DNA of 64,000 bases from Lentisphaera profundi. GTDB lineage: Bacteria; Verrucomicrobiota; Lentisphaeria; Lentisphaerales; Lentisphaeraceae. Positions 14,073 to 17,617 of the stretch are shown here, piece after piece (position 1 is the stretch's first letter; each line of letters opens with the position of its first letter). The stretch spans positions 1,798,001 through 1,862,000 of the forward strand of contig NZ_CP117811.1 of NCBI RefSeq assembly GCF_028728065.1, written 5' to 3'. The notes below the pieces were generated by a model, which was given only the letters and a program-made list of their open reading frames with translations, made no database searches and had not been told where the DNA came from. The position numbers were made by a program, and so were the translations under genes.

Positions 14073-16068
14073 AAATTTTCTCTAAACTTAACTTCGCATG
14101 ACTTAGTTTAGGGTCTACTTCTTGAATTTTCACCTCTAGGCGCGTACCAATATCTAGCTTTTTACCATGATTCAATTTAAGTCTCATCGCAATTCCATCT
14201 AATTCAACCAAGAGCCCGCCATTTAGATGCGCCACTACTGTTGCTTCATAGACTTCCTCTAATTTGAATTGCCTTAAATACTCGTACAACCAAAAGCTTT
14301 CTGATTGTCTTTGCACATCTCTTACTTCTCCAAGACGACTCTCACCCTTTGCCTGAAGCTCCAATAAATCTTCTTCTTGATAAATAAATTCTCTTTTCTC
14401 GATTGCTGCAATCAGCTGCCTTTGCATCACGAGATCCGTATAACGACGAATAGGAGAAGTGAATTGTGTGTAACAATCCAAACCTAAGCCTGCATGCGCT
14501 CCTGCATAGAGTGTCATTCTCGATTTTTTCATACACTTAATAGCTGCATCAAAAGATATCGGATCATACACATCTGGCATAGGAACAATTTTATCCGACT
14601 TTTCTTGGACCCTATATAAAACGGGAACATCATGATCAAGACAATATTGTGCTCCCATATTATTTGCAAAAATCATGAATTCACCAATCAAGGCACGACT
14701 AGCGGAATTCGCTCTCACTTCCGTTACAGTAACTTCGTCACCTTTCACTGTGATTTTATTCTCAGGCCGATTAAACGTCACCGCTCCGTTCGCTTTGCGC
14801 TTTTCCATAAGCTGAATAGATAAATCATGCAGACTATGCAAATCTTGCTCTAAACCTTCTGTGGCTTCTACTTCGCCATCCAACACGTCATCACAAAATG
14901 AATAACTCAATTTTTCGCTCACATGGATGAGGCTTCTCTCAATTTTTTTATCGATGACTTCTGCGTCACTATCAAAAGTAGCATAATACGAGAGTGCAGG
15001 TTTTGCTTCTCCTGGCAATAAGGAAGCTCTATTAGTAGAGAGTTCCTGGGGGAACATATTCACTGTACCCGTAGGTAAATAAATACTCGTAGCTCGATTT
15101 TGTGCTTCTTGATCAAGAACGCTTCCTTTGACGACATATGAACTAACATCCGCAATGTGAATTCCCACTTTTAGCTTACCTTCAGCTAAACGCTCTACAC
15201 TAAGTACATCATCGACATCACTTGTGGATTCGTCATCTATACTAAAACAATAAAAATCAGGACCTAAAATAGTTCTATCTGCCTCTTCTACCTCAAGTTC
15301 ATCTGCTAAATCTAATAGCTTTTGAGAAAAGTCAGGACGAATCCCCGCCAATAATAAATGCTCGTCATGACCTTCTCCAATACTTCCCGTTTTCTTAAGA
15401 AACTCTAAAGCTTTAATTCTCACCGGGGTTTTGCCTATCAACTTATCCAAAAAACGCGAGGCATCTGAATTCTGCTTGGACCAAATCAAGTTGCATAACT
15501 GACCGACAAAAGACGTGAACTTTTCGGGTACTTCAATAGCTTCTTCATCAGTGCTAACTAAGACTTTTTTAACCCAAGGCTCGAGCTCAGCTTCATACTC
15601 TTCTTGTAATCGTTTCTTTTCTCTGCTTTTCAGGATTGCTTGTACTTGCTCTGAATCTCTTATAGTAAACTCAGCGAGCCGCTGTTTAAAGTAAACAATA
15701 TCTTGGCATAAAACATCAAATAAGGCTGACATTGAATAATCTGCTTTCTCGGAAAAATAAAAGTCACATAAGTCTGTTAACGAAAAAGTTTTACACTCTT
15801 CGCCATCAAGCATCTCCCACAGCATTTCTAAATCAATTTGTTCGGCAATCTTCGCAATCTTCTCTTCATGATCTCTATGCTTTAAGCGAAAATCATCTTC
15901 ACTAATCTGAGTATCAAAACTAAATAACACATTCTTTAGAGGCAAGGGAATAGTTCGGCCACTTGCTATCAATGCTTGAGCACGTTTTTTTTCTATCCCC
16001 AAGACATACGCTAACTTTAATCGAGTCCCATCGGTGTAGGCACTTAGCCCGCGAAATTCTTCTATCAT
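14065..16068 (-). CDS. RNase II/R-family exoribonuclease (RNB domain)
   Basis: A 667-aa 3'-5' exoribonuclease. The RNB catalytic site with clustered aspartates is visible as DDESTSDVDDVLSVE (about residue 275), followed by GIHIADVSSYV and, later, the signature FTSPIRRYTDLVMQRQL. A C-terminal S1-like RNA-binding region covers roughly the last 80 residues. No clear N-terminal cold-shock OB pair is visible; the first 200 residues look helical, so it is not a canonical RNase R. AAGGAAGAGA directly precedes the ATG at 16068. It heads the minus-strand run that continues into ftsW and murG. Confidence 0.9.
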   Translation of the reverse strand: MIEEFRGLSAYTDGTRLKLAYVLGIEKKRAQALIASGRTIPLPLKNVLFSFDTQISEDDFRLKHRDHEEKIAKIAEQIDLEMLWEMLDGEECKTFSLTDLCDFYFSEKADYSMSALFDVLCQDIVYFKQRLAEFTIRDSEQVQAILKSREKKRLQEEYEAELEPWVKKVLVSTDEEAIEVPEKFTSFVGQLCNLIWSKQNSDASRFLDKLIGKTPVRIKALEFLKKTGSIGEGHDEHLLLAGIRPDFSQKLLDLADELEVEEADRTILGPDFYCFSIDDESTSDVDDVLSVERLAEGKLKVGIHIADVSSYVVKGSVLDQEAQNRATSIYLPTGTVNMFPQELSTNRASLLPGEAKPALSYYATFDSDAEVIDKKIERSLIHVSEKLSYSFCDDVLDGEVEATEGLEQDLHSLHDLSIQLMEKRKANGAVTFNRPENKITVKGDEVTVTEVRANSASRALIGEFMIFANNMGAQYCLDHDVPVLYRVQEKSDKIVPMPDVYDPISFDAAIKCMKKSRMTLYAGAHAGLGLDCYTQFTSPIRRYTDLVMQRQLIAAIEKREFIYQEEDLLELQAKGESRLGEVRDVQRQSESFWLYEYLRQFKLEEVYEATVVAHLNGGLLVELDGIAMRLKLNHGKKLDIGTRLEVKIQEVDPKLSHAKLSLEKIFE

Positions 16069-16196
16069 TCTCTTCCTTGTTAAATTTTACTGTAAAATGC
16101 CTTCACGGGATCACTTTTCAAACCCTTTTCATCAAGTAAAAGAAACTCCTTTTACACTCGAATTAACCTTTTCTTAACATTTGTCGCCGTAAAAAT

Positions 16197-16224
16197 TTGA
16201 AATGTATATTTTTATGAATATTAT
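16197..16224 (+). promoter_or_regulatory. Candidate sigma-70 promoter for the stem-loop RNA
   Basis: TTGAAA at 16197-16202 and TATTAT at 16219-16224 are separated by 16 bases in an AT-rich stretch. Transcription would begin near 16231, about 25 bases before the first stem-loop. The call rests on the match to consensus and on position. Confidence 0.5.
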
Positions 16225-16230
16225 ATAAGT

Positions 16231-16409
16231 AAGAAACAAAGGAATTTTTCAAACGATTTTTTAAGTCGCCGTCCCGAACACTCCTCCCCTCCTATTGACA
16301 CTCCCAGGGGCGGCGACTTAAAAAATCGAAACAAGCAAACTTTAAACTGCCGTCCTACTCCTCACTCCTCCTATTGACACACTCCCAACACTCAGGGCGG
16401 CAGTTTTTT
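16231..16409 (+). ncRNA. Candidate small RNA with two homologous stem-loops carrying CU-rich, anti-Shine-Dalgarno loops
   Basis: The divergent gap between the RNB gene and mreB contains two long hairpins. Stem 1 is 22 bp (16254-16275 with 16307-16328) and stem 2 is 13 bp (16344-16356 with 16394-16406). Each has exactly one non-Watson-Crick pair, at the same place (T16272 with G16310, T16353 with G16397): a U.G wobble if the plus strand is transcribed but an A.C mismatch on the minus strand. The 31- and 37-base loops are clearly related, sharing CTCCTATTGACAC and one or more CCTCC cores, the complement of a ribosome-binding site. A T6 run follows stem 2. Neither flanking gene ends here, so these are not their terminators. 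RNA boundaries are estimates. Confidence 0.7.
16344..16409 (+). terminator. Rho-independent terminator of the candidate small RNA
   Basis: The second stem (13 bp including a U.G wobble) ends in six consecutive T residues at 16404-16409. The loop is unusually long (37 bases) for a terminator because it carries the CU-rich repeat. Confidence 0.6.
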
Positions 16410-16555
16410 CTCTTAAATACCAACCACCCCCGCAATTAATCTCATAATACTGACGATTAACTTGCTTTTTAGCCACTTTTTATCGAGGGGCTTTTTTGCA
16501 AAATCCATTATCGAACTATCTTAAGACTTGTTTAAAATTTTAAAATCAGTTTCCT

Positions 16556-17617
16556 ATGAGTCTAGTTAATAAAATCAGATCAGTTTTCGTCAAAGATATC
16601 GGTATCGATCTTGGTACAGCCAATAGCCTTGTTTTCGTTCGCGACCAAGGCATCGTCCTCAATGAGCCCAGCGTAGTTGCTGTACACGAAGATACTGGCA
16701 AAGCTCTAGCCGTAGGTATTGAAGCTAAAAAAATGCTTGGTAGAACTCCCGGTTCAATCAGAGCTATTCGCCCAATGAAAGATGGCGTCATTGCAGATTT
16801 TGACATTACTGAAATCATGTTGCGTTACTTTATTAACAAAGTTCATTCACGTGCCCGTAATTTAACCATGCCTCGTGTACTTATCGCTGTTCCTTCTGGA
16901 ATTAACGAAGTCGAAATGCGTGCGGTTAAAGAAAGTGCTAAAAAAGCTGGTGCAGGTGAAGTAGAAACAATTTTCGAACCGATGGCTGCCGCCATTGGCG
17001 TAGGACTACCGGTCGCCGACCCTACAGGCAATATGATTGTAGATATTGGTGGGGGCACAACTGAAGTTGCCATGATTTCCTTAGCTGGCATCGTAGAAAG
17101 TAGAAGTGTGAAAGTTGGTGGTGACGCTATGGACATGGCTATTACTAATCACATAAAAAATAACTACAATTTGAAAATTGGCCCTCGAATGGCGGAAGAC
17201 ATCAAGATTAATCTTGGCTCTGCCTTCCCTCTTGACGAAGGTGAATTAACCATGGAAGTACGTGGTAATGATCAGCTCGCAGGACTCCCGAAAGCGATCA
17301 CCATCACCAGTACTGAAATTCGTGAAGCTCTCATGCCTCCGGTTACATCAATTGCTGAAGCTGTTCGCCAAACTCTCGATAGATGCCCACCGGAACTTTC
17401 TGCTGACCTTATTGATCACGGCATCTATTTAGCTGGCGGTGGTGCTTTGCTCCGTGGCTTAGATAAATTACTCCGCCAAGAAACAGGTCTTCCTGTTACC
17501 GTAGCCGATGACCCACTCTGTGCTGTTGCTAATGGCACTGGTTCTGCACTGCAAAATATGGACACTCTTTTTAGAAACTCACACGAAGCAGCCAAGCGCA
17601 ATAAAAAATACCGTTAA
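16556..17617 (+). CDS. mreB: Rod-shape-determining actin homologue MreB
   Basis: A 353-aa actin-like ATPase that organises lateral peptidoglycan synthesis under the membrane. Phosphate-1 motif DIGIDLGTANSLVFV starts at residue 14, phosphate-2 is VDIGGGTTEVAMI (about residue 162), and the adenosine motif is LAGGGALLRGL (about residue 293). A short basic and hydrophobic N terminus could serve as membrane contact. No mreC or mreD follows; instead plsY, gpsA and murA do, joining cell shape to phospholipid and peptidoglycan precursor synthesis. It lies downstream of the candidate small RNA. Confidence 0.97.
   Translation: MSLVNKIRSVFVKDIGIDLGTANSLVFVRDQGIVLNEPSVVAVHEDTGKALAVGIEAKKMLGRTPGSIRAIRPMKDGVIADFDITEIMLRYFINKVHSRARNLTMPRVLIAVPSGINEVEMRAVKESAKKAGAGEVETIFEPMAAAIGVGLPVADPTGNMIVDIGGGTTEVAMISLAGIVESRSVKVGGDAMDMAITNHIKNNYNLKIGPRMAEDIKINLGSAFPLDEGELTMEVRGNDQLAGLPKAITITSTEIREALMPPVTSIAEAVRQTLDRCPPELSADLIDHGIYLAGGGALLRGLDKLLRQETGLPVTVADDPLCAVANGTGSALQNMDTLFRNSHEAAKRNKKYR

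Follow-up and report, generated by a model that had tools for sequence, protein, structure and literature searches.

A putative family of small RNAs with anti-Shine-Dalgarno loops, specific to Lentisphaeraceae

The stretch of Lentisphaera profundi DNA analyzed here, called the window below, spans 64,000 nucleotides (contig NZ_CP117811.1, positions 1,798,001 to 1,862,000), and all positions are counted from its first base. In it, rnr on the minus strand and mreB on the plus strand diverge from an intergenic region that carries two plus-strand hairpins, as described by a first-pass annotation made from the sequence alone. Hairpin 1 (A1; 16254-16328) has a 22-bp stem (16254-16275/16307-16328) and a 31-nt loop (16276-16306) with CUCCUCCCCUCCUAUUGACACUCCC, and hairpin 2 (A2; 16344-16406) has a 13-bp stem (16344-16356/16394-16406) and a 37-nt loop (16357-16393). 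The core CTCCTATTGACAC is found in both loops, at 16289-16301 and 16368-16380, and both loops are CU-rich with CUCC/CCUCC repeats. The stems pair as that annotation had claimed and show compensatory differences from each other. Each also contains, at an equivalent place, the single wobble it had noted (U16272-G16310 and U16353-G16397), which is U-G on the plus strand only and sits inside a GCCGUCC/GGGCGGC core common to both stems. The plus-strand fold, in which both loops are fully unpaired, has a minimum free energy of -56.4 kcal/mol (z -7.5), and none of 200 shuffled sequences was as good. Hairpin 1 matches the covariance model of the family with an E-value of 2.7e-17, a figure obtained with hairpin 1 itself among the training sequences.

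The promoter-like TTGAAA-N16-TATTAT (16197-16224, plus strand; TTGAAA at 16197-16202 and TATTAT at 16219-16224) is also present as first described. This predicted promoter matches the consensus at 10 of 12 positions, and two congeners conserve it, one of them with TAATAT instead of TATTAT as the -10. It is the best of 8 promoter-like sites found in 15900-16700, where 1.6 would be expected, and the promoter score alone is therefore weak. A stretch just 5' of it, TTAACCTTTTCTTAA at 16163-16177, is conserved in all three Lentisphaera species and is a possible regulator site. At the other end, a T6 run (16404-16409) closes hairpin 2 as a predicted intrinsic terminator, and T-runs are also found after the corresponding hairpin of the orthologues and after the copies at the cmk locus described below. 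The loop of hairpin 2 exceeds what a standard terminator scan accepts. From promoter, hairpins and T-run we infer a noncoding small RNA transcribed from the plus strand, about 180 nt long (16231-16410), in which all reading frames are short. The start of mreB lies 147 bases past the T-run, on the same strand. The initial statement that the hairpins are not ordinary terminators was half right: no gene ends into them, but hairpin 2 is itself most likely the terminator of the sRNA, a role that had been overlooked.

A DNA search returned the same double hairpin, with 85% identity and at the equivalent position, from two congeners, one of them L. marina. A third hairpin of the source genome, also missed at first, forms a single-hairpin locus on another contig, which brings the genome to three family hairpins at two loci. 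In each of the three Lentisphaera species this hairpin is found upstream of cmk, in divergent orientation, and is followed by a T-run of 7-9. Two metagenome-assembled genomes (MAGs) of another Lentisphaeraceae genus contain one hairpin each, beside rnr, and in both the far side of the hairpin is occupied by prepilin-like genes, not mreB. The link to rnr is thus wider than the link to mreB, and the hairpin element is a unit of its own. In the three-species alignment, identity is 85-95% in the stems and loop 1, 65% in loop 2 and 50% in the spacer; it drops to 38% over the 80 bases past the terminator and reaches 89% in the 65 bases before mreB. This is the conservation pattern of two separate units, a predicted sRNA gene and the putative promoter/UTR of mreB. 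The strongly conserved region 5' of mreB (16500-16555; 89%) is without a Shine-Dalgarno (SD) sequence.

It had been proposed to ask whether stem differences covary while the loops stay fixed, and they do. Across 10 distinct hairpins with 11 shared pairs, pairing is kept in 110 of 110 cells and four stem pairs have changed on both sides. The covariation score was 0.453, compared with 0.281 (sd 0.032) for shuffled sets, and never exceeded 0.18 when the structure was slid. Kinship of the sequences inflates such scores, but the covarying changes fall between loci and between genera. A further compensatory change, between species, is seen within hairpin 1, where pair 16258-16324 is U-A in the source genome and C-G in both congeners. 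While the stems vary, the loop core CTCCTATT is unchanged in all 10 hairpins; the motif CUCCUAUU is invariant and common to the whole family, and GACAC or GACGC is found in the loop of 9 of the 10. The conserved loop core CUCCUAUUGACAC extends beyond the bare anti-SD. The 12-base loop core has four exact sites in the genome, three of which are family hairpins, and the fourth, as the complement, lies at a ribosome-binding site.

A covariance-model search, the other check that had been proposed, found the family in five of six Lentisphaeraceae genomes and nowhere else convincingly among 198 genomes of the class. Weaker matches there were short-loop, mostly ordinary hairpins or were without the family loop. 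Among 388 genomes of the phylum there was one extra match, which at 35 nt could not accommodate the loop. When 84,980 species, each represented by one genome (a set from which near relatives of the source genome may be absent), were scanned for the exact pattern, L. marina and the two MAGs were the only matches. No Rfam family reached threshold in gathering or E-value searches, and a literature search found no work on regulatory sRNAs of Lentisphaera. Acido-Lenti-1, a candidate structured RNA shared by Lentisphaera and Acidobacteria (PMC2864571), is not the same RNA. The hairpins thus appear to represent a previously undescribed sRNA family specific to Lentisphaeraceae, of a known functional kind and probably of independent origin.

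The explanation that we favor, with moderate confidence, is a stand-alone, noncoding, plus-strand sRNA that acts in trans through anti-SD loops, is Hfq-independent and is specific to Lentisphaeraceae. Transcription from its own promoter would start near 16231, and hairpin 2 with its U6 would end the RNA at about 180 nt. Each stem would keep a loop of 31-37 nt open, with the CUCC/CCUCC repeats and the conserved CUCCUAUUGACAC, and the loops could then pair in trans with the purine-rich SD region of target mRNAs, which would block 30S binding and lower translation. The 3' end of the 16S rRNA is the usual ...ACCTCCTTT, the standard anti-SD that the loops imitate. Such pairing may not require Hfq, because the C-rich loop seeds would be strong and pre-exposed. 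Hfq (Pfam PF17209) was detected in none of five Lentisphaeraceae genomes (G000, G001, G002, G004, G005), with positive controls detected, so any loop pairing must work without it; the class of Hfq-dependent trans sRNAs, which supposes a host that encodes Hfq, does not fit these five genomes. The conserved extension UAUUGAC would add specificity for few mRNAs, with the gene of a small membrane protein conserved in the genus as the leading candidate.

The mechanism of repression and its targets are, like transcription, what we infer from sequence. Our best target candidate is the gene of the MEKQEEKS membrane protein (205-224 aa, with an apparent N-terminal membrane segment): in all three Lentisphaera species its orthologues have the loop complement GTCAATAGGAG 8 nt ahead of the ATG. 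The gene was not found in the two genomes of the other genus. Pattern searches, on which the target candidates rest, also returned TCAATAGGAGG 4-5 nt before the ATG of a gene for a HEAT-like/coiled-coil protein (MSNLDKAL...; Pfam matches below cut-off) in two of the three species. Predicted loop pairing at the two candidate sites is -20 to -30 kcal/mol, compared with a median of -8 to -9 and a best value of -18 for window genes, energies that are a description and not a test since the sites were picked for complementarity. Genome-wide, the 13-nt loop complement is not enriched (72 matches vs 95 in the control, with at most two mismatches), which makes a large regulon with extended pairing unlikely. 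Conserved blocks of similar length are also present upstream of some other genes, so conservation of the target sites is suggestive, not decisive, and for both reasons the targets are candidates only. By crude start calling, an SD-like motif precedes only about half of the window genes.

An alternative is a structured RNA with C-rich loops that capture a protein or sequester another, G-rich RNA and do not block the ribosome-binding sites of mRNAs. This would also account for a loop core CUCCUAUUGACAC that is conserved past the bare anti-SD and whose complement is not enriched in the genome, and the conserved 5' hairpin of the cmk-locus RNA, with its GGAG, could pair with such loops. However, the invariant part of the loop, CTCCTATT, includes the anti-SD CUCC, and loop complements at ribosome-binding sites are conserved across species. 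We therefore consider this reading unlikely.

In our judgment the element is very unlikely to act in cis on mreB as a leader or attenuator, with hairpin 2 terminating transcription 147 nt upstream of the gene under regulated read-through. It is on the same strand and adjoins mreB in three Lentisphaera genomes, but it also lies beside rnr where mreB is not the neighbor, and one copy is upstream of cmk. Moreover, conservation is poor past the terminator (38%), and a fresh 89% block just before mreB looks like the promoter/UTR of that gene itself, which has no SD. The suggestion in the first-pass annotation that the RNA acts on mreB fares no better: the gene is without an SD sequence (AAAATCAGTTTCCTATG), its predicted pairing with the loops (-8.0 to -8.4 kcal/mol) is at background (window median -8.2 to -9.1), and two genomes have the hairpin beside rnr without mreB. 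What stands of its new-sRNA reading is the plus-strand sRNA gene with covarying stems, constant anti-SD loops, no Rfam match at threshold and an arrangement that closely resembles the cuckoo RNAs. The ribosome-binding sites of mreB, rnr and cmk were all rejected as targets, their pairing being near background.

We give hardly any credence to the idea that the hairpins lack a regulatory function and are either ordinary terminators or a dispersed repeat at the DNA level. T-runs do close hairpin 2 and the hairpin at the cmk locus, and most of the weak covariance-model matches in the rest of the class are ordinary hairpins with short loops. However, no gene ends into the hairpins, their loops are both long (31-37 nt) and conserved, neither of which a terminator needs, and each genome has just three copies, which keep their syntenic positions and show compensatory stem change. 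Least credible of all is a functional minus strand with GGAGG/GGAG loops as a sponge for a CsrA/RsmA-type protein, rejected despite the GGA-rich reverse complement of the loops since there the conserved U-G wobbles become A-C mismatches, the fold differs and has a z of just -1.8, and the T-run and conserved promoter are on the plus strand.

Read as an anti-SD sRNA acting in trans, the Lentisphaera RNA would work like the cuckoo/αr14 and mycobacterial 6C RNAs, in which the design of anti-SD or C-rich loops is at work (PMC10746234, PMC3927594; PMC10470900), and by the tests run it is a member of neither family. In cuckoo/αr14 RNAs, three or four hairpins with divergent stems each carry a CCUCCUCCC loop (PMC3927594, PMC10746234). 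Like these RNAs (RF02344; NfeR1, SmelA075/SmelA099; Rhodobacter CcsR1-4), the Lentisphaera family has several anti-SD-loop hairpins in which the stems diverge and the loops stay constant, and the last hairpin of the Rfam αr14 model ends in a U-run, as in the Lentisphaera sRNA. In contrast, CCUCCUCCC is ultraconserved in every αr14 hairpin, whereas the Lentisphaera motif is CUCCUAUUGACACUCCC, with CUCCUCCCCUCC in loop 1 and CUCCUCACUCCUCC in loop 2. There are two hairpins at the rnr/mreB locus and one at the cmk locus instead of three or four, the cuckoo hosts belong to a different phylum, and, in a look made without a profile search, no DUF1127-like short gene was seen beside the Lentisphaera sRNA. 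Among 4227 Rfam families, ar14 was the top match of the window region, at 20.7 bits against a cut-off of 58.8 (E 0.097), and neither of the two orthologous regions matched it at E<=1. The view taken at first, that there is no relation to cuckoo RNAs beyond the idea, holds as far as tested.

Mycobacterial 6C (B11) has two C-rich-loop hairpins, each able to repress a target whose 5' UTR contains a G tract (PMC10470900), and 6C is reported as chaperone-independent in the title of a paper cited in PMC10470900 (Mai et al., 2019). This mycobacterial/actinobacterial RNA shares the two hairpins with C-rich loops, but its loops are runs of six C, whereas those of Lentisphaera, from an unrelated phylum, are CUCC repeats with UAUUGAC; no Rfam 6C match was found in the window or the loci. 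RNAIII of Staphylococcus aureus, named as an anti-SD loop RNA (PMC3927594), and similar sRNAs also block translation by loop-to-SD pairing, but no sequence or architectural relation to the Lentisphaera sRNA was seen. We see an even chance that Lentisphaeraceae independently evolved anti-SD-loop sRNAs that work without Hfq and are directed by UAUUGAC to a small fixed set of mRNAs, in convergence with the cuckoo and 6C RNAs. Should this be confirmed, alphaproteobacteria and actinobacteria would be joined by a further separate lineage that displays the anti-SD in sturdy hairpin loops, which would indicate a simple design that evolves repeatedly, also where Hfq is absent. The candidates provide testable targets in a cultured genus.

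The cmk locus has further conserved features. Its RNA, expected to be about 90 nt long, starts with a small conserved 5' hairpin, GAGAAGGAGAGCTTCTC (L057:4434-4450; equivalents in L058 and L059), the GGAG of which could pair with the CUCC loop. The stretch CTTCACAAAGACTTACATCTAAAGCTTTT, 5' of this hairpin, is conserved without a good -35, which suggests an activator site. Directly 3' of the family hairpin, a second intergenic element, about 155 nt long (L057:4604-4760, plus strand; orthologues in L058 and L059), is strongly conserved and structured. Without an Rfam match at threshold and, terminator-only matches aside, confined to the three Lentisphaera genomes, this element has a fold z of -4.3, ends in a perfect terminator and is a candidate for another sRNA.
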